25,485 nt of DNA from a virus. This document shows positions 7,156 through 25,485 of the stretch, piece by piece. The position numbers were made by a program, and so were the translations under genes. The stretch spans positions 1 through 25,485 of IMG/VR virus record IMGVR_UViG_3300017818_000099. One strand, written 5' to 3'. The notes under the pieces are model-generated. The model saw only the letters and a list, made by a program, of their open reading frames with translations. It did no database searches and was not told where the DNA came from. Every line of letters begins with the position of its first letter. The stretch's first letter is position 1.

Positions 7156-7165
7156 TATAGTTACT

Positions 7166-7209
7166 TAAATCTGGGGTTGTTAATTCAGCCCCAGGTTTAT
7201 ATTTTTTTT
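7166..7209 (+). terminator. Intrinsic terminator after the capsid gene
   Basis: A left arm (7166-7179, TAAATCTGGGGTTG) pairs with a right arm (7186-7199, CAGCCCCAGGTTTA) around a six-base TTAATT loop. The result is a 14-pair stem with a GC-rich core and two G-U pairs. A run of eight T follows at 7202-7209. This is a textbook rho-independent terminator and the strongest one in the window. It sits 10 bases after the capsid stop, so it probably ends or attenuates capsid transcription, much as T7 terminates after gene 10. Confidence 0.88.
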
Positions 7210-7231
7210 AATTATTTAATTTTATCATATC

Positions 7232-7993
7232 ATGGGAAAAAATAAATCCTCAGAGGTCAGTAATTGGGAAATTAAAGACCGTCATTATTATTTGGTTGGA
7301 AAACAACCATTAACCTATACAATACCATCTCGCCACAGTACTAAAAGACCGTTATTATGGTTTGATCCAGAGAAAAAAGAGCAGCGAGAAATTAGATATG
7401 CTACGAATATGAACAGTGTATTTGTAGATGAGCAAAAGGGTGAAGCAACGCTTGGGCATATTATGTTTAAAGATGGCCACTTGCATGTGCCTAAAGAATT
7501 TCAATCTTTACAAAAGCTTTTATCTATTTATCATCCTTTTCTTAATAAAAGATATAGGGAACATGATTCAATAGTTGAAGCACAAGATGAACTTCAAACA
7601 ATTGAGCTAGAACTTGAAGCGCTTAATATTGCAACCAGTATGGAGATTGACATGGCAGAAGCTATTGTTCGCGTTGAACTCGGTAGCAGCGTTTCAGGTA
7701 TGAGTTCAAAAGAAATTAAAAGAGATTTACTTTTATTTGCTAAAAGAAATCCAGCTTTGTTTTTAGACTTAGCAAATGATGAAAATGTACAGCTTCGCAA
7801 CTTTGCAATTAAAGCAAAAGAAGCAAACATTATTAGTCTTTCACAAGATCAAAGAACAATATCTTGGGCGTCAAACGGTAAAAAGCTTATGACAGTACCA
7901 TTTGACGAAAACCCATATTCAGCTTTTGCTGCCTTCTTGCAAACAGATGAAGGTGTAGAAGTTTACAAATCAATAGAAAAAAAGTTTGCATAA
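7232..7993 (+). CDS. Conserved capsid-adjacent protein of unknown function
   Basis: This 253-residue protein lies between the capsid gene and the first neck gene. I recall similar proteins at the same place in Crassvirales-like and flavobacterial phages, but no function is known to me. Visible features are an N-terminal beta-rich segment (HYYLVGKQPLTYTIPSRH, then a WFD and an IRYATNMNSVFVDE stretch), followed by VPKEFQSLQKLLSIYHPF, and a helical region with LELEALNIATSMEIDMAEAI. The C-terminal part is marked by LFAKRNPALFLDLANDENVQ and DENPYSAFAAFLQTDEGVEVY. There is no signal peptide, membrane segment or catalytic motif. It is isolated by a hairpin on each side, which suggests that its expression is set separately from the capsid and tail genes. 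Its length and position would fit a minor head or head-completion protein, which is inference only. Confidence 0.7.
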   Translation: MGKNKSSEVSNWEIKDRHYYLVGKQPLTYTIPSRHSTKRPLLWFDPEKKEQREIRYATNMNSVFVDEQKGEATLGHIMFKDGHLHVPKEFQSLQKLLSIYHPFLNKRYREHDSIVEAQDELQTIELELEALNIATSMEIDMAEAIVRVELGSSVSGMSSKEIKRDLLLFAKRNPALFLDLANDENVQLRNFAIKAKEANIISLSQDQRTISWASNGKKLMTVPFDENPYSAFAAFLQTDEGVEVYKSIEKKFA

Positions 7994-8002
7994 CGTGTGA
8001 TA

Positions 8003-8043
8003 TTAATATAGAGCGGTAGCGTTATGTTGCCGCTCTTTATTAA
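8003..8043 (+). terminator. Long hairpin, probable terminator
   Basis: An 18-base left arm (8003-8020) pairs with an 18-base right arm (8026-8043) around the loop GTTAT. The core GAGCGGTAGC/GTTGCCGCTC includes two wobbles, and the outer A/T part has one T-T mismatch. Because the arms end in A/T runs, the T-tract is short and interrupted (TTTATTAA), so termination may be weaker than at the hairpin after the capsid gene. The near-symmetry could let it act on both strands or as an mRNA processing or stability element. It lies wholly in the 59-base gap between the 253-residue gene and the first ring gene. Confidence 0.65.
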
Positions 8044-8052
8044 AATAAAAAT

Positions 8053-16225: not shown

Positions 16226-16945
16226 ATGTCTGGAATACTTGTCGGTGTTGGCGCTAGTTTGCTTGGAGGATTTCTAGGCAGCAGTGGTGCTAAAAAAAGA
16301 AGAAGAGCTGCAGAAAGAGCTGCAAGAGCAAAGCAGAGAGAGCTTAATAAGTTAGAAGCTAGTAGGCAGGCTGTTATAAATCCATATGCAGGTGTAACAA
16401 GTTTAGCGGATATGGCTAAAGATTTATCTGGTGAATTAAGTAATCCATTTGCTAATTTAGGTGTAGCTACAAAAGCAGCTGAAATACAAATAGAGCAATC
16501 TGATATTGCGTTAGCTAATACGTTAGATACATTGAGGGCAACAGGGGCTTCAGCTGGAGGTGCAACAGCGCTAGCGCAAGCAGCATTAAAATCTAAACAA
16601 GGTGTAGCAGCAAATATTGAACAGCAAGAGGCACAAAATGAAAAGTTAAAAGCTCAGGGTGAAGCTACTTTGCAATCACAGCGTATGGCTGAAAAACAGA
16701 GAATTCAAGGTATACAAATATCGGAGGGAGCTAGAGCTCAACAAGCACAGGCACAAGGTAAAGCTTTCGCGTTTAACGCTAGGGAATCTAGAGAAACAGC
16801 AAAAATTAATAGAGTTGCTGGGCAACTTGCTAATCAGCAACAAGCAGCTGCACAAGCCGCGCAGGACCAGTCTGCGGCATGGGCGGGGGCATTTAGCGGT
16901 ATAGGAAGTACAATAAGCGCCGGTATACAGGCAGATGCTTTTTAG
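16226..16945 (+). CDS. Small internal virion / ejection protein (T7 gp14-like by position and design)
   Basis: This 239-residue product begins with a Gly-rich hydrophobic segment (ILVGVGASLLGGFLGSSG, residues 4-21) immediately followed by a strongly basic patch (KKRRRAAERAARAKQR). After that come a conserved-looking INPYAGVTSLADMA and a long Ala/Gln/Glu/Lys-rich helical region (about 85-225). A membrane-prone N-terminus plus a coiled-coil body fits the small ejection proteins that form a pore in the outer membrane in short-tailed phages, such as T7 gp14. It is followed by medium and giant genes in the same order as T7 14-15-16. Its annotated stop at 16943-16945 is suspicious because sensible coding continues in the -1 frame for 31 residues. 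No enzyme motif was seen. Similarity to gp14 is functional analogy, not demonstrated homology. Confidence 0.7.
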   Translation: MSGILVGVGASLLGGFLGSSGAKKRRRAAERAARAKQRELNKLEASRQAVINPYAGVTSLADMAKDLSGELSNPFANLGVATKAAEIQIEQSDIALANTLDTLRATGASAGGATALAQAALKSKQGVAANIEQQEAQNEKLKAQGEATLQSQRMAEKQRIQGIQISEGARAQQAQAQGKAFAFNARESRETAKINRVAGQLANQQQAAAQAAQDQSAAWAGAFSGIGSTISAGIQADAF

Positions 16946-17037
16946 GGGCAGCGCCAATAAGTCCAACGCAACAAAATCAAATTGTAAACGCATTCATACC
17001 TGGAGTTGGTACGTTTTTACAAAATCAAGGTAATTAA
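16939..17037 (+). other. Candidate -1 frameshift site and 31-codon extension of the ejection gene
   Basis: The gene at 16226 ends GCT TTT TAG, with five T at 16939-16943. If the ribosome slips back one base on TTT, or if one more T were present, reading continues from TTA at 16942. It then gives 31 codons to a TAA at 17035-17037. The extension begins LGAAPISPTQQNQIVNAF and ends GVGTFLQNQGN, a plausible Gly/Gln/Asn-rich ending. It would raise the product to 270 residues and shrink the gap to the next ATG from 104 to 12 bases, matching the spacing elsewhere. A programmed shift at a stop codon, a real inactivating deletion and a homopolymer sequencing error are all possible. No strong downstream stimulatory structure is apparent. 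Confidence 0.55.
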
Positions 17038-17049
17038 AATAATAAATAA

Positions 17050-18633
17050 ATGGGAGCATACGAAAATCCACCACCAATACAGTTCCGAACTACAGGGGCA
17101 GGCGCGGCATGGGCTAATGCAGCAGCTAGTATTGGTAAAAATATTGGTAATGCTGTAGTAGAAAGAAAAAAATATCTTGATGCAAAGCTAGAAAAAGAAA
17201 ACAAAGAAATGCTTGATCTTGCTAGGCAGAGAAATGCTCTTGCTGCACAAGGGGCAGAAAAACTTAAATCTAATCTTGAAAAAATGAAAGGATTAGATGA
17301 AGAGTTTAGACAAGCATATATAAAAGAATTTAATGAAGGCTGGAAAGTTTATACAAGATCACAAACATCTACTGATTTAGAAGAGATAGAAAGCTTACAA
17401 CCTCAATTAAAAAGATTTAATCATTTTCAAGCTGTAAGTGGCGATCAAATACAAAATGCCAATAATTATTCAATTAAAATGGCTACATTTATTGATCAAA
17501 TAGCCATAGACGGACCAGGTGTGCCAAATACGGTAGATTTGTATTATAAGGGTAATAATAATTTAATGAAAGCTGCTAATATTGAAACTGGCGGTATTAC
17601 AGAAGGCGAAAGCAGAGAAGTTATTATAAATGATAAAGGCGACGCGGTAATGCGTTATACATTTGTAAATGAAGACGGGAAGTCAGAAACATTTGATTTA
17701 AATACAGCGGAGCTGGATTTAGACAATGTGCTTCAGGTGCCTGACTACAACAATAAGGTTGAGGGAACTATAGCTAATACAGGTATATTTAATGAAGACG
17801 GATCAATAAATCCTTCATATGCACCTTTAGATGAAAGTGGTCAGCCTCAATTAGAAGTAAAAACTGAAATAGTTGATGGCAAAAAAATAACTACACAAAA
17901 TCAGGTTGTAAACACAGAAGGTATAATACAACAATATACAGATGCAGGGATGAATGCTATGGGGGACATGACGCATGCTCAAAAAGTGTCTATATGGAAA
18001 AACACTATTGCCCCCGCATTAAAAGATTATGAGCCTGAAGATTTATCATACGATTCAGAAACAGGACAATTTACAAAAGAGCAAGCAGCTATATTTAACG
18101 CGGGTGTTGGCTCTTATCTTGGTGATATGGCTCTAATGAAAGTTGAAGCTGCAACAAAAGACAGCTATAAAAGAGTTATGACTGAAGCGCCTAGGGGCAC
18201 AGAAGTTAAAGCTCCAGATACATTTGCAGGCGAAATTTTTGAAGATATACAATCTGACCCAGCCACTGCATTTACAGCTGTTACAGGTAAAAAAGCTTCA
18301 TATGATGCTAATACTGATAAAGTAACCACAACAGAGCTCGTATTAAACAAAGAAACAAACGAATATGAAGAAGTTCCTGTTGTGTATGACTTAAGCAATC
18401 CTGGTATGTTAACTTATTTTTATAATACAGTATTAGAATCTACCCCTGGTTATTTAGGAGGACAATCAGGGGCTAGACAATCGCAAGAAATGCAAAAGCT
18501 CGTTAAAAAGCTTTTAAAAGAAAAACAAGAAGAAAACGAATTTGCTACTCCTGCTGAAGAACAGCCTAGATCTACAGAAGAATTTGATAGCTATGCTGAA
18601 AGCCTGCGAAATGTTAACCGACAAGGTAAATAA
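17050..18633 (+). CDS. Internal virion / cargo protein, medium-sized (T7 gp15-like by position)
   Basis: This 527-residue protein has no recognised enzymatic motif. It starts MGAYENPPPIQFRTTGAGAA, a beginning I associate with internal or cargo proteins of flavobacterial and Crassvirales-like phages. A long charged helical region follows (about 25-125, with KKYLDAKLEKENKEMLDLAR), then mixed segments (VIINDKGDAVMRYTFVNEDG around 195-215). The C-terminal tail is charged and helical (KLVKKLLKEKQEENE) before a disordered end. There is no signal peptide or membrane segment. Placed between the small membrane-prone protein and the giant protein, it most likely belongs to the set packaged inside the head and ejected with the DNA. 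The next ATG is 14 bases after its stop. Confidence 0.6.
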   Translation: MGAYENPPPIQFRTTGAGAAWANAAASIGKNIGNAVVERKKYLDAKLEKENKEMLDLARQRNALAAQGAEKLKSNLEKMKGLDEEFRQAYIKEFNEGWKVYTRSQTSTDLEEIESLQPQLKRFNHFQAVSGDQIQNANNYSIKMATFIDQIAIDGPGVPNTVDLYYKGNNNLMKAANIETGGITEGESREVIINDKGDAVMRYTFVNEDGKSETFDLNTAELDLDNVLQVPDYNNKVEGTIANTGIFNEDGSINPSYAPLDESGQPQLEVKTEIVDGKKITTQNQVVNTEGIIQQYTDAGMNAMGDMTHAQKVSIWKNTIAPALKDYEPEDLSYDSETGQFTKEQAAIFNAGVGSYLGDMALMKVEAATKDSYKRVMTEAPRGTEVKAPDTFAGEIFEDIQSDPATAFTAVTGKKASYDANTDKVTTTELVLNKETNEYEEVPVVYDLSNPGMLTYFYNTVLESTPGYLGGQSGARQSQEMQKLVKKLLKEKQEENEFATPAEEQPRSTEEFDSYAESLRNVNRQGK

Positions 18634-18647
18634 ACAAATATTTAATA

Positions 18648-21600
18648 ATGATTGAAATATATATTGTAGACGGTAGAGAATTTAAAGTTCATTCGTCTAG
18701 AAAAGATGAATTCCTTAAAAAATATCCTAGTGCTCAGCTAAAAGAAATTGAGCCGGGAAAGGAATCTCCCACAGCACCGGGTGCGGTTGTGGAGGAAACT
18801 GTAGCACCCGAACCCGTGAGTATGGACTTAGATTCGGAAAATATTTTATTGGATTCAATTCCTGAGCCGCCAAAGCAGATTGAGTCTCAAAAGCTGTCTT
18901 CTGACCAATATGATATGCTTTCGGATTATATAAGCGAGTTAGCTAAAAGTGAAAGAGAAAAACCAGAAGAGCCTTTTACGTATACGGGAGCGCTTGTTAA
19001 TGCCGCTTTAAATATTCCATTAGATTTACAAACAGCATGGGAAAGCACCAAAGCATTTGCTGTAGATTATATTAAGGACGTAGCTGGAACTGATGCTGCG
19101 GATTTTTTAGTTGGGGAAATGGGTGGAGCTATTGCTTGGATAGACCCGGAAACTTTAAGCAAGGTAACCTTTGAAAATGATCCAGAAAGATGGAAAGAGC
19201 TCGCTGCGCTAAACAGAAGAAATGATACAACTATAGACGCTGTTTATGATGATACAAATATAAAAATGGGTTCCGCTGCTGAAAAATATATCATAGACCA
19301 GTATAAAGAAGTTGAAAATTTAAGGTCTCAGCGTTTAAAAGCAGGTAAAATTGTTGAAGAATTTGATATAACAGACCCTTTTAATGTTGAATTTACTTCA
19401 GGGCCTGAGCTGTTTAGTGGTATAACAAATGTAGTTGGTAGTCTAATTAGTACTGTGGCACCAGCAGCTTTAACAAGGGGTGCTTCATTGGGACCTCAAA
19501 TTACAGCACCGATGTACATAGATTACAATGTGCAAAAAGCCGAAAGATTATATGGTGATGACCCTGATGCTCTTAAAAAGTTAGTAGAAAATAACCAAAC
19601 TGAAATAGCTACACCTTTAGCTCTTGGAACATTAGCAAGTGGTTTAGAATATATAGGTTTTAAAGGAATTACTAAGCAAATTGCATCTAAAGCAGGCGGA
19701 CTTAAGCCTTTAGTTTCATTGCTAGGTACCCAGAATAAAGAGGGAATAACAGAATTAAACCAAGCTGGATTAGAAACAGTAAACACTAGTTTAGCTGAGG
19801 GTAAATCTTTAAATAATGCTATTGTTGACGGTCTTAGTGCAATGGCAAGTGCTGATGGCTTAGAAAGCTATTTAGGCGGATTTATAGGCTCGGGTGTTAT
19901 TGCTGGGCCATCTAGCGTGGCTAAAGCATTAAGAAGTGACGAAGGGTCTATGAAAACAGTAATGGATCATATTGACGCTATAGGTACTTTACAAAAACAA
20001 AGATCTTTAAATAAAGATAAATCATATAGAAGTGCGATTGATTTAGAAATACAAAATGTTGAAAAATCCTTAAAAACATTTCTTGAAGATGCATATATAA
20101 AAACGTCTCTTCTTTCAAAAGAGCAAAGAGCTGAGCTTGATGGTTTCATAAAACAAAAAGAAGAAAATCAAACTAAACTAAAAGATTTAGAAAAATCTTA
20201 TAACGATAAAAAAATAACTGGACAACAGTATGGCCTTGCTAAAGGAATTATTGCTAATCAAAATAAAGCAATTTCAAATAGCATAGTTAAAATAAAAAAT
20301 TCAATAGACTTAGATAAAGTCGGACAAAGTATTGCTGAAAGAGAAGAAATGCTTAAAAAAGCACAAGAGCAGGGTGTTCTTCCAGATTTAAAAATAAGAT
20401 CTTTTGACAAGCAATCCGAACTTGAGGATTACGTAGCAAAAACAAAAGGAGCAAAAAAGTTTGACGGAAAATATGGGGTAATATATCAAAACCCCAATAC
20501 TAATGAACAAGAAATACTTATAAATAAAGAACAAAAGCTTAAAGATAAAATTGTAACAACAGCAGATCACGAGTTTTTGCATGCTGTATTATACCAAACT
20601 GTTAAAAACAATCCCGAAGCTCAAATTAATTTAGGGAAAGCTTTACATAATGAACTAATAAAGCAAGAAGGATTAGATGAAATTGTAAGTTCTGATTACT
20701 TTGATAGACTATCAAGTTATTTGGAAGGAGCTGTAACAGAACAACAACAAGGAAATGCGTGGGAAGAAAGTTTAACTCTTTATGCTGAAGGGCTTGCTAA
20801 TGGCGCCTTTAAAACGCCTAATAAATCTTTTATACAAAAAATAAAAGAATTTTTTGAAAAACTATTTGGTAAAAATGTTGCTGAAGATATAACCTTTAAC
20901 GAAGGTAAAGATGTTATAAAATTTATTCAAGACTACAATAAAAGTTTTCAAACCGGCAAATGGGGAGAAGGTATTAAAAAATTAGCAAAAGAAGGTGCAA
21001 AAGGAAAATTAATTGTATCACCAGAAAGTAAATCGCCACAGTTTAAAGAGTTTACAAATAAAGCAAGTAAAATATTTAAAGACCCTAAGCCTATATTTGC
21101 AAGTGACTTATCACCATTTGATCAATATGACTTTGTGCAAGTTGCTGCAAATTCAATGTTTCCAAATGTTGCAAATGAAGATAAGGTAAAATCCGGTCAG
21201 TTTAGTACATATGAAGCATTATCAGCAGATCAAAAGCTAGAGTTAATAGAAGACTTACTTGACAAAGGCGGATTAAAACCTAAGTTTAGTAGAAGCGTAT
21301 CGCCTGATAAAAAAGATCTTAAAGGCATATTTGATAAATTTGTACAAACACCAGAAGGTAAAACAAAATACAAAACCTTAGAAGCTTTTAGAAAATCTGA
21401 AGATTATTTTGATGCATATAATGAAGTTTCAGAAGGCGATGCCATAGGCAAGTATGTAAGAGGTCTTGTTAATGCTGATAAAAATCTTGGCTCGCTTGAT
21501 GAAAATATAAAAAGTGAAGTTATAAGTAATGTTAGAGAAGTTATAACTGAAAGATTTTTAAAGAACTTTGATCCGGCTAAAAACGAAAGTTTATTTGGTT

Positions 21601-24600
21601 ATTTGTTTGGTGCAAAGCCTATAGTTGATTTTGCGCTTCGTGATGTTAAAAAGAAGTACGCTCAACAAGTTAGAACTGTATCTACAGATGTTGAAACCGA
21701 GGGTAGAGGGTTTGAAGCGGTAGACACAGAGTCTGCACAAATAGAAGAAATTGTAGACAGAAGTTTAACAGAAGAGCAGCAAACTTTTGAATCACAGCTA
21801 AAGTCTACACTTACTGTTGGTGGTCAATCATTTATTACGCCTGAACTTGCACAAGAAATTAGAACAGCGGCTTATGAAACTTTTGAAGGTGATTTGCCGC
21901 CTATAGATAGCCGCGATTTTAGAAAGTTTGTTACTGACTCATACAAGAAAAAGCTTATGCCTATAATTAAAAAGGCATTAGGTAATAAAAAGAAGTTAGC
22001 AGATTTTGTTATAGAAAATAAACAAGACTTATTAGAGGGTTTACCTATTTCTTATTGGGTACAAATTGAAAGATTATTACCAGACACCCAAAAGATTTTT
22101 ACTAAGTATGTTAAAAGGTTAACTACACAAGCGGAAATAGATAAGTATACTGCTCTTGGCAGAGTATATACAGAAAATGATGCTGATGGCCCTGAGCTTT
22201 ATCAATTATTAAATCCTACTGATGCACAGATACAAGCGTTCTTTACTGGGCCAGTGGGCGATCAGTCAATGTCAGATATTCTTGGCTATACTGTTTCACC
22301 TTCTACATTAGCAGCTAGAAAGTCAGAATTAGGCGCCAATATAGGTTTACAAACAGCGTCGGATGCAACACCTGGTGTAGTTCAAACAAAACCTTACACA
22401 GAGCAGGAGGCCGCTAAAATAGCCTTAAAAGTAAATAGAGATTTACGACAAAAGTTTTCATCAGCTGGCAAAAAAATTAAAAAAATAAATGCTACTGAGC
22501 TTGTTAATTATATAAAAGATGGTGATTTAAATTCTGATATAGCTAAAAAATTAGGTGTTCCTGAAAGTTATGTTAATGCAATAGTTGATAGATTAAAAAA
22601 TAGATTTCCATCAAACGGTAATAAACAATACGGTCAAGACCAAATAGAATATTTAAATGATAAAGGCTTTAATCAAATTACAGAAGAAGCGGGTATTGTT
22701 ATGGTTGCTGGGGCATTTAATCAAAGATTTAGATTAAAAGGTGAATTAACTGTTAATGGCAAAAACCAAATTGATTTAGCTACAAATATTTTAAATAATA
22801 AAATATCACAAGCTACAACTGAAAGCGAAAAAGTTAAAGCTATAATTAATCATATGAGGTTCTACGGCAGAACTTTGCGTGCAAAAAATGGGGTGTTTAG
22901 AACAAACCGTCAAGCATGGGAAGAGATGTATAGCAATATAATAAATCAAAATAACATAGAAGGATTTGAGTTGCTTCCAGTAAGAAATGGAGAAGGTTTA
23001 TTTTATAATGGTCAAAACATAACTTCTTATGTAGACCCCACCAGCACAAAAGTAAAAAATAATATTGAACTTTTACAACCAGAATTTAACAAGCAATCAG
23101 AAGAAGCGCTTAATACTTTTTTAGAAACACTTGATTTTATTAAGACCCAACCAAACGCTGTAGAACTTGCAAAAGGTTATTTAACGCTTTCGGTAAGAGA
23201 AATGCGAAGCCCTTTAAAACTTTTAGCTAAAATAGCTTACAAAGAAAAAGGTGATCTTGTTAGTCCCGTATATGAGCATATGACTCCGGCATCACTGTTA
23301 GGCAGAATGAGTATGTCTTATGTAATTAGTGATAAATTAATTTCTAAAAATACACTTACTTCTTTTTTAAATGATAGTAAAATAGCATTAATATCTAAAA
23401 AATTAGATGCTAAGCTGCGTAAAGATTTTAAATTTACTATGCCGCCGGGTGGCCCAATTGCAAGATACGAGGAGTCTGGTATTGATATGAGTGTTTTAAC
23501 TCCATTGCAGCCCCAAGAAATAACAGAAAAGCTTAGTTCAAAAGCTGCTCCTGAATTTAATAGAATGATTGCAAGAGCAACTGGGTTTGGTACACGCGAA
23601 CAAATATCTGACAAGGTTGCTACAATGCTTGGTAAAAATAAAGGCCGATTCAGATTCTTTATACCGCCTTCGGCCGATGACTTTGCGGGTCTTATGTACT
23701 ATATGGTTGGAAAAGGCAAGCAGGGTAATGATGATTTAAAATTTTTAAAAGAAAACCTATTTGACCCATTTGGTAGAGCAATAAGAAAGTTTGATGCTGC
23801 AAAACAAAAACGTTTAGCAGACTTTAGAGAACTTAAAAAGTTAATACGCAGAACACCCAGTCGTCTTTCAAAGAAAAACGAAACAGGATTTACAAACGAG
23901 GATTCAGTAAGAATATATATATGGAATAGCTTAGGCTATACCATTCCTGGCATGCAAAAGAAAGACATTGTACCTCACGTAAAGCTTGTTAAAGGTAATG
24001 AAGATCTATTGGCATTCGCTCAAAACGTGCAAGGTATATCTATTATGGGTTATCCCGAACCTGATAATGGCTGGGATGCCGGCTCAATGACCACTGATCT
24101 TTTAACATATGTAAACAAAACAGAAAGATCTGAGTATTTAAAAGAATGGAAAGCAGCGAAAGATGCATTCTTTACCAATAAAACGATGAACAAGTTAAAA
24201 GCTGCATTTGGCGAAAGTTATACGGAAGCATTAGAAGATATTCTTTATAGAATGGAAACTGGCAGAAGAAGAACTACCGGCTCAAATAAACTTGTTAATG
24301 GTTTAATAAACTGGGTTAACGATTCTGTCGGTGCAATTATGTTCTTTAACTCTAGGTCAGCATTGCTACAGCAGTTATCAATGGTTAACTTTATAAATTT
24401 TAGTGATAATAATCCATTATCTGCCGGAGCTGCATTTGCAAACCAAGCACAGTTTTGGAAAGACTATACGTTTTTATTTAATTCTGATTTTCTTAAGCAA
24501 AGACGGTCAGGATTAAAAACAGATGTAAACGCAGATGAAATTGCTAAAGCTGCAGAGTCAGGAGCAAACCCTGTAAGGTCTGTAATAGCATCAATACTTA

Positions 24601-25485
24601 AAAAGGGATTTTTACCAACACAGCTTGCTGACTCACATGCAATCGCTATGGGCGGAGCTTCGTTTTATCGCAACAGATTAAAGCGATATATGAAAGAAGG
24701 CATGACAGAACAAAAAGCTGCTGATAAAGCGTTCTTAGATTTTCAAGAAGTTGCAGAAGAAACACAGCAATCATCAAGACCAGACCGTATTTCAATGCAG
24801 CAAGCAAGTGGTATAGGGCGCGTTATATTGGCTTTTGCTAACACTCCTATGCAGTACGCTCGGTTAACCAAAAAAGCTGCTTTAGATTTAGCTAATCGAA
24901 GAGGCGACTGGAAAACAAACCTTAGTAAATTAATGTATTATAGCACTATTCAAAACGTTATATTTTCTAGTCTGCAGTCAGCTATGTTTGCACTAATGTT
25001 TACCGATGAAGAAGAAGAAGAAACTAAGAAAAGATATTATAGAATTGCTAATAGCACCGCTGATTCTTTGCTCCGCGGTCTTGGATTTGCGGGTGCTGCC
25101 GTGGCTACAGGAAAGAATATGGTTCTTGAAACAATAAGGCAATATAAAAGCGGAAGACCTAATTATGAAAAAATTGCATTAGAAGCACTAACATTATCGC
25201 CACCTATTGATTCTAAAATAAGTAAACTAGCTTCAGCTGGTAGATCATTTACATATCGGCAATCTCGGGAAAAAATGAGAACTGAAGGTATAAGTTTAGA
25301 TAACCCTGCTTTTGAAGCTGTTGGTCAAATTATAGCATCAACTACAAACTTGCCAGCAGATAGAGTTGTTAGAAAACTTGACAACCTTACAACGCCCGTA
25401 AGACAGGACGTTGAAACCTGGCAAGCAATATCGCTTGCATTAGGTTATAGTAAGTGGGATGTAGGGCTTATAGAAAAGCAAACCA
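18648..25485 (+). CDS. Giant internal virion polyvalent-type protein, 3' end outside window
   Basis: The frame is open from ATG at 18648 to the window edge, giving at least 2279 residues. Residues 3-28 form a short unit (VDGREFKVHSSRKDEFLKKY, ending PSA), followed by an acidic Pro-rich linker to about 95. Residues 100-420 are Gly/Ala-rich helices (TLASGLEYIGF, then EGITELNQAGLETVN), and 430-600 look coiled-coil. HEFLH at 641-645 followed by EESLTLYAE at 706-714 resembles a zinc metallopeptidase (gluzincin) site. DIAKKLGVPESYVNAIV at 1297-1313 looks like a helix-turn-helix. The C-terminal third has conserved-looking blocks: FFIPPSADDF (1670), FFNSRSALLQQLSMVNF (1899), SSRPD (2042) and AFANTPMQY (2062). 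A hydrophobic helix (about 2103-2118) and an acidic patch come next. I recall these last blocks from giant proteins of marine phages. By position it matches T7 gp16. No lysozyme-type transglycosylase domain was recognised. Arginine is mostly AGA. Confidence 0.8.
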   Translation, partial: MIEIYIVDGREFKVHSSRKDEFLKKYPSAQLKEIEPGKESPTAPGAVVEETVAPEPVSMDLDSENILLDSIPEPPKQIESQKLSSDQYDMLSDYISELAKSEREKPEEPFTYTGALVNAALNIPLDLQTAWESTKAFAVDYIKDVAGTDAADFLVGEMGGAIAWIDPETLSKVTFENDPERWKELAALNRRNDTTIDAVYDDTNIKMGSAAEKYIIDQYKEVENLRSQRLKAGKIVEEFDITDPFNVEFTSGPELFSGITNVVGSLISTVAPAALTRGASLGPQITAPMYIDYNVQKAERLYGDDPDALKKLVENNQTEIATPLALGTLASGLEYIGFKGITKQIASKAGGLKPLVSLLGTQNKEGITELNQAGLETVNTSLAEGKSLNNAIVDGLSAMASADGLESYLGGFIGSGVIAGPSSVAKALRSDEGSMKTVMDHIDAIGTLQKQRSLNKDKSYRSAIDLEIQNVEKSLKTFLEDAYIKTSLLSKEQRAELDGFIKQKEENQTKLKDLEKSYNDKKITGQQYGLAKGIIANQNKAISNSIVKIKNSIDLDKVGQSIAEREEMLKKAQEQGVLPDLKIRSFDKQSELEDYVAKTKGAKKFDGKYGVIYQNPNTNEQEILINKEQKLKDKIVTTADHEFLHAVLYQTVKNNPEAQINLGKALHNELIKQEGLDEIVSSDYFDRLSSYLEGAVTEQQQGNAWEESLTLYAEGLANGAFKTPNKSFIQKIKEFFEKLFGKNVAEDITFNEGKDVIKFIQDYNKSFQTGKWGEGIKKLAKEGAKGKLIVSPESKSPQFKEFTNKASKIFKDPKPIFASDLSPFDQYDFVQVAANSMFPNVANEDKVKSGQFSTYEALSADQKLELIEDLLDKGGLKPKFSRSVSPDKKDLKGIFDKFVQTPEGKTKYKTLEAFRKSEDYFDAYNEVSEGDAIGKYVRGLVNADKNLGSLDENIKSEVISNVREVITERFLKNFDPAKNESLFGYLFGAKPIVDFALRDVKKKYAQQVRTVSTDVETEGRGFEAVDTESAQIEEIVDRSLTEEQQTFESQLKSTLTVGGQSFITPELAQEIRTAAYETFEGDLPPIDSRDFRKFVTDSYKKKLMPIIKKALGNKKKLADFVIENKQDLLEGLPISYWVQIERLLPDTQKIFTKYVKRLTTQAEIDKYTALGRVYTENDADGPELYQLLNPTDAQIQAFFTGPVGDQSMSDILGYTVSPSTLAARKSELGANIGLQTASDATPGVVQTKPYTEQEAAKIALKVNRDLRQKFSSAGKKIKKINATELVNYIKDGDLNSDIAKKLGVPESYVNAIVDRLKNRFPSNGNKQYGQDQIEYLNDKGFNQITEEAGIVMVAGAFNQRFRLKGELTVNGKNQIDLATNILNNKISQATTESEKVKAIINHMRFYGRTLRAKNGVFRTNRQAWEEMYSNIINQNNIEGFELLPVRNGEGLFYNGQNITSYVDPTSTKVKNNIELLQPEFNKQSEEALNTFLETLDFIKTQPNAVELAKGYLTLSVREMRSPLKLLAKIAYKEKGDLVSPVYEHMTPASLLGRMSMSYVISDKLISKNTLTSFLNDSKIALISKKLDAKLRKDFKFTMPPGGPIARYEESGIDMSVLTPLQPQEITEKLSSKAAPEFNRMIARATGFGTREQISDKVATMLGKNKGRFRFFIPPSADDFAGLMYYMVGKGKQGNDDLKFLKENLFDPFGRAIRKFDAAKQKRLADFRELKKLIRRTPSRLSKKNETGFTNEDSVRIYIWNSLGYTIPGMQKKDIVPHVKLVKGNEDLLAFAQNVQGISIMGYPEPDNGWDAGSMTTDLLTYVNKTERSEYLKEWKAAKDAFFTNKTMNKLKAAFGESYTEALEDILYRMETGRRRTTGSNKLVNGLINWVNDSVGAIMFFNSRSALLQQLSMVNFINFSDNNPLSAGAAFANQAQFWKDYTFLFNSDFLKQRRSGLKTDVNADEIAKAAESGANPVRSVIASILKKGFLPTQLADSHAIAMGGASFYRNRLKRYMKEGMTEQKAADKAFLDFQEVAEETQQSSRPDRISMQQASGIGRVILAFANTPMQYARLTKKAALDLANRRGDWKTNLSKLMYYSTIQNVIFSSLQSAMFALMFTDEEEEETKKRYYRIANSTADSLLRGLGFAGAAVATGKNMVLETIRQYKSGRPNYEKIALEALTLSPPIDSKISKLASAGRSFTYRQSREKMRTEGISLDNPAFEAVGQIIASTTNLPADRVVRKLDNLTTPVRQDVETWQAISLALGYSKWDVGLIEKQT

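Follow-up and report, generated by a model that had tools for sequence, protein, structure and literature searches.

Predicted -1 frameshifting and exchangeable C-terminal tails at the end of a putative ejection protein gene in phages related to flavobacterial podoviruses

The gene end and the gap behind it

The window, by which we mean the whole stretch of DNA analysed, is a virus record of 25,485 bases. Its terminase matched MW202828 (63%), Flavobacterium elemo phages (about 46%) and Cellulophaga phages (about 38%), that is, flavobacterial podophages and a spring-water podovirus. The gene family described here is one of uncultivated phages related to flavobacterial podoviruses. The locus comprises the following features:

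16226..16945, + strand: gene of a putative internal virion (ejection-type) protein, 0 frame, 239 codons plus TAG
16939..16945, + strand: proposed slip site T_TTT_TAG, a Z_ZZN minimal -1 site (PMC5009743) and not a canonical heptamer
16945..16967, + strand: position of the hairpin of relatives; in the window a weak hairpin only (p = 0.35)
16942..17037, + strand: tail in the -1 frame (31 codons, then TAA), with homology to that of relative L368
17050..18633, + strand: next operon gene, 527 aa, conserved, unlike the tail between

The 239-codon gene ends in GAT GCT TTT TAG, and its stop codon (16943-16945) overlaps a run of five T (16939-16943); the sequence and the open reading frames bore out the coordinates of the initial annotation. 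Read in the -1 frame from the TTT at 16939-16941, the DNA encodes LGAAPISPTQQNQIVNAFIPGVGTFLQNQGN and then reaches a TAA at 17035-17037. These 31 codons, likewise as first described, leave 12 bases to the ATG at 17050. The 104-base gap behind the stop is the longest in the window, but it is not the sole sizeable one, as had been claimed: two others, of 76 (7156-7231) and 59 bases (7994-8052), occur in the structural operon, and in these the -1 frame is open for 2 and 9 codons only. An AAAAAAG heptamer lies two codons upstream of the stop at 7993, where the -1 frame opens just 9 codons.

Past the stop of the 239-codon gene the +1 frame is likewise open, for 29 codons ending 16 bases short of the next gene. 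Taken by itself, the window thus has an open -1 frame of a length that chance would give; since the +1 frame is equally open, the -1 frame is singled out only by the relatives. The open +1 frame also suits the reading that the gap is non-coding, serving as a regulatory or promoter region with an open frame by chance, as does one weak promoter-like match (about chance expectation). Against this reading, which we consider very improbable, the gap holds neither an Rfam match nor a + strand terminator, tails in the family show protein homology when read in the -1 frame, and the tailed relatives share a slip motif.

The gene is the first of three that encode proteins of 239 aa, 527 aa and >2279 aa, an order that fits a gp14-like ejection protein. 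We take this succession of a small, a ~500 aa and a giant protein to resemble genes 14-15-16 of T7. The giant ORF (18648-25485, >2279 codons) runs past the window end and has no significant Pfam match; its position suggests a T7 gp16-like ejection protein. In isolates, the proteins at the same gene position are annotated as structural. A profile of the gene matched gp99 of Cellulophaga phi38:1 (annotated structural) only weakly, at an E value of 6e-7 that is compositionally biased, and gave no convincing match to the elemo and MW202828 proteins at the same position. The proteins from the window and from relative L036 had no match in 50,697 phage records, and the window gene had none in PHROGs, Pfam or PDB. 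An AlphaFold model of the product consists of long helices at low confidence; its best viral structure match, 'Internal virion protein', is borderline (E = 6e-3) and comes from this low-confidence model, while a structure search against PDB returned no match. From the gene order, the borderline structure match and the structural proteins of isolates, the product can reasonably be called a putative ejection-type internal virion protein. A lambda-type tail assembly chaperone was rejected: the operon is of podophage type, the nearest records are podoviruses, and the gene does not lie between major tail protein and tape measure genes. The related isolates examined have neither the gap nor a tail at this gene position.

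Slip sites, stop codons and hairpins in relatives

Five IMG/VR scans with different members of the family yielded 144 distinct genes with readable ends, and the next gene could be placed in 143. Spacing between the stop and the following ATG was bimodal, with 120/143 loci at -1 to 33 bases and 23/143 at 83 bases or more; the gap threshold of 60 bases was set after this bimodality was seen. For L283 (gap 309) the next gene is probably placed too far downstream. An in-frame X_XXY_YYZ heptamer was found 0-1 codons before the stop in 20 of the 23 gap loci (17 GGGAAAN, 3 AAAAAAN), while such a heptamer (Y = A or T) stood at the gene end in 2 of the 120 short-gap loci (Fisher p = 3e-19, a value that ignores relatedness). 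The gap loci lacking it were the window, L289 (CTA AAG TAA) and L074. The last has no recognisable tail, and its 0-frame end runs into the start of the next gene, so that its 0-frame C-terminus contains the N-terminus of that gene (MSYRNPQIIVDRSAEIWAQG...). L074 is probably an indel or assembly error; it is counted in the 23 and excluded from the tail statistics.

Pairs drawn from the tree are the safer test. Explaining the tail trait on the core tree takes 12 changes, no fewer than 8 of which fall on well-supported branches. Ten independent pairs differed in the heptamer, and the tail differed in the same direction in about 7, in the opposite direction in 0 and not at all in 3 (sign test p = 0.016). 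L394 and L393 were found after the 20/23 count, the Fisher test and the tree pairs had been computed; they enter only the hairpin test and the analysis of codon slots, stop codons and pooled tail differences.

In-frame GGGAAAN occupied 19/48 last codon slots of tailed genes, compared with 0/240 of untailed genes and 2/36,104 other slots. A Z_ZZN step lay at most one codon from the stop in all 22 tailed genes of the main set and in 40/120 others. TAG was the stop in 17/24 tailed genes and 12/120 untailed ones (set including L393 and L394); TAA dominates the untailed relatives (104/120), as TAG does the tailed. The -1 extensions of gap loci comprise 23-49 codons and usually end just before the next gene: in 20/22 tailed genes the extension was at least 23 codons long and ended 0-25 bases before it. 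The +1 frame was open for 23 codons in 4/22, the window among them.

The best hairpin just past the slip site was more stable than in dinucleotide shuffles, with a combined p of 7e-12 over 24 tailed junctions. A control stretch 35 bases further downstream gave p = 0.84 (paired test 4e-6). Relatedness among loci inflates such p values, and only the tree-based one takes it into account. The signal was absent by the shuffle test from some members, e.g. L368, L381 and the window.

The long form could instead arise if RNA polymerase slipped on the T run and put an extra base into some mRNAs, and a five-T run is indeed present in the window. A five-base run is short for transcriptional slippage, however, and relatives with a GGGAAAG site offer the polymerase no long run, so transcriptional realignment cannot explain the family; its probability is slight even though programmed transcriptional slippage is known (PMC5009743).

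Four phage contigs of the family (L396, L398, L399 and L401) were assigned to metagenome bins that bear the labels Aliivibrio, Ilumatobacteraceae and Woesearchaeota; these are probably misbinned viral contigs.

Tails as protein and their exchange between phages

Homologous -1 tails occur in different phages and form five groups. The window tail matched the -1 tail of L368 (AAPISPT...QQNQIVNAFIPG; E = 7e-9), whose slip site is GGGAAAA, with 67% identity over 21 aligned codons, and its first third resembles the tails of L033 and L394. In two cases a -1 tail matched the in-frame C-terminus of a relative: that of L272 matched L267 (E = 1e-9), and that of L289, which is also homologous to the L033 tail, matched L075 (E = 6e-4). 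The L036-L054 tail pair had a pN/pS of 0.16, with 4/1/9 differences by codon position, and pooling six tail pairs gave 36/17/46 differences by -1 codon position (p = 0.001); the L034-L283 and L165-L167 pairs showed no codon constraint. Stop-codon readthrough was ruled out, as the tail sits in the -1 frame. Independent restart was likewise rejected, with no ATG, GTG or TTG among the first 8 codons in 18/22 tails; it is possible at L368, because its ATG overlaps its TGA.

Tails could also serve as queries. When a single tail group was used as the query, four loci came back, of which three were already known and one, L393 (ending GGA AAG TAA), was new. A comparable search with the window/L368 tail gave 111 pattern matches and confirmed 0, but it was insensitive, L368 itself being in the collection.

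The initial annotation had suggested an alignment of close relatives and would have counted an unrelated downstream sequence behind the same stop as evidence against a -1 continuation. The outcome was mixed: the nearest relatives, L394 and L002, indeed terminate at the equivalent stop and differ largely from the window beyond it, but those sequences are themselves -1 tails, reached by GGGAAAT or GGGAAAA. L394, found in a contig scan, is the closest relative of the window (93% core identity). Its gene ends in GTG GGA AAT TAG, behind which lies a separate -1 tail of 31 codons, LEATSSVSPTSTRTYTRSELMDIFGGAEVKL, which resembles the L033 tail and is 23% identical to the window tail. DNA identity between the window and L394 was 84% over the core, 69% over the final 60 bases and 54% across the gap, and 89% over the first 590 bases of the next gene. 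L163 and L393, with different next genes, are 57% identical in the core and 90% in the tail. By these comparisons, the tail behaves as an exchangeable cassette swapped between phages. S, T, N, G, P and Q make up a larger share of the tails than of the remaining protein (0.51 vs 0.38), as do aromatics (0.09 vs 0.03), a composition that would fit short disordered contact peptides. In L043, L048, L290 and L305, the 0-frame protein is ~315-360 aa long and carries a different C-terminal module in-frame; that of L048 resembles an S74 endosialidase chaperone domain, below the Pfam cut-off.

The two-form idea and the -1 continuation, first proposed from the window alone, are thus strongly supported for the family by heptamers on the stop, hairpins, homologous -1 tails and in-frame tails, and it is highly probable that the family uses -1 frameshifting. 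We give an even chance to a wider proposal: that across uncultivated podophages, probably of Bacteroidota, the first ejection protein bears a short C-terminal peptide dosed by -1 frameshifting, and that slip site, stop, hairpin and tail are traded together as a cassette, with some lineages using no more than T_TTT or A_AAG ahead of the stop in place of the heptamer, or an in-frame fusion.

A two-form protein and the site in the window

We consider it likely that programmed -1 ribosomal frameshifting in the final codons of the gene yields two forms of the putative internal virion protein. The majority of ribosomes would terminate at TAG 16943-16945 and release the 239-residue form. In a minority, with the stop codon in the A site, the tRNA-Phe on TTT 16940-16942 would slip to TTT 16939-16941; these ribosomes would read TTA GGG GCA ... 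up to TAA 17035-17037 and so produce a form of 270 residues, of which the last 31 are the tail. A GGGAAAN or AAAAAAN heptamer on the stop codon and a hairpin a few bases downstream would serve the same process in relatives. Our best guess for the tail is that a minority of subunits bears a short, probably disordered peptide touching the portal or the next ejection protein. We infer both the slippage in the host and its efficiency, as well as this role.

The least certain part of the explanation is that the T_TTT site of the window works, although functional slippage there is still somewhat favoured. The slip of TTT onto TTT before TAG, as originally suggested, is a legitimate minimal -1 site, but the window junction, GCT TTT TAG, offers only the Z_ZZN step T_TTT, with no canonical heptamer, and the hairpin after its stop is not significant against shuffles. 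The less likely alternatives are a one-base error and a decayed site. In the former case, the family would frameshift while the window run would truly be six T, a base having been lost in sequencing or assembly, and its tail would be fused in-frame. Besides the missing heptamer and hairpin, the in-frame tails of L267 and L075 speak for such a fusion. On the other hand, five-base homopolymer runs are seldom misread in short-read data, and the stop-to-tail phase of the window equals that of L394 and L002, a modest argument against a lost T, as random base loss would produce this match about 1 time in 3. We regard a lost T as unlikely. A DNA pattern over the T run found no second copy of the window junction in the viral collection. 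In the latter case, the tail would be a leftover of a decayed slip site and just the 239-residue protein would be made, consistent with the absent heptamer, the weak hairpin and the fact that most relatives are tail-less. This too is improbable, for no stop has interrupted the 31 codons of the tail frame, its similarity to the L368 tail persists, and T_TTT before a stop is a minimal -1 site (PMC5009743).

The preferred reading, two forms via -1 frameshifting, has several known counterparts. The lambda G/GT heptamer is GGGAAAG (PMC9965538), and one gene there gives short and long forms in a fixed ratio (PMC5009743). Lambda G/GT and its counterparts in long-tailed phages share with our family the same heptamer near the end of a structural-module gene. 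Their products, however, are tail assembly chaperones absent from the virion, whereas here the product is presumed to be an internal virion protein of podophages, the heptamer lies directly on the stop, and the tail is short and exchangeable. In the T7/T3 10A/10B and phiEco32-like capsids, also of podophages, a -1 frameshift near the stop lengthens a virion protein. Kuraviruses and Privateer use GGGAAAG near the capsid stop (PMC9965538, PMC7881722); both capsid forms are reported in particles. Those cases concern the major capsid protein; here an ejection-type protein would gain tails of 23-49 residues that are not Ig-like by sequence. Ig-like C-terminal modules move between phages, in-frame or behind a frameshift (PMC5009743), as do the tails of L272/L267 and L289/L075, but they are folded domains on several proteins, in contrast to the short polar peptides of one family with mostly the same GGGAAAN-stop-hairpin signal. 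In Alteromonas podovirus H4/4, -1 slippage involving an internal virion protein was predicted for genes 39/40 (PMC5658483); there an endolysin gene runs, by way of an overlap, into that of the internal virion protein, while here a tail is added at the end, and both cases are predictions. Finally, single-tRNA Z_ZZN -1 slippage extends the protein in Bacillus cytidine deaminase and at the A_AAG of IS1222 (PMC5009743). The T_TTT of the window and the A_AAG before TAA of L289 resemble these sites, although the genes differ, and we came across no study that directly tests T_TTT with TAG behind it. In the literature covered, largely papers outside subscription, no ejection protein was found to be described with a C-terminal tail added by frameshifting. 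Thus, the type of frameshift is known from lambda G/GT and T7 10A/10B, while this gene family and its exchangeable tails appear to be unreported.

If the two-form reading is true, a structural protein of these phages is annotated 23-49 residues too short, and the ejection apparatus joins the phage virion functions dosed by frameshifting, which include tail chaperones, capsid and tail proteins. A tail borne by only some ejection-protein subunits would offer a testable handle on a minority contact in the ejectosome. Since the tail differs between near-identical phages and is common to distant ones, recombination seems to trade a peptide together with its expression ratio.
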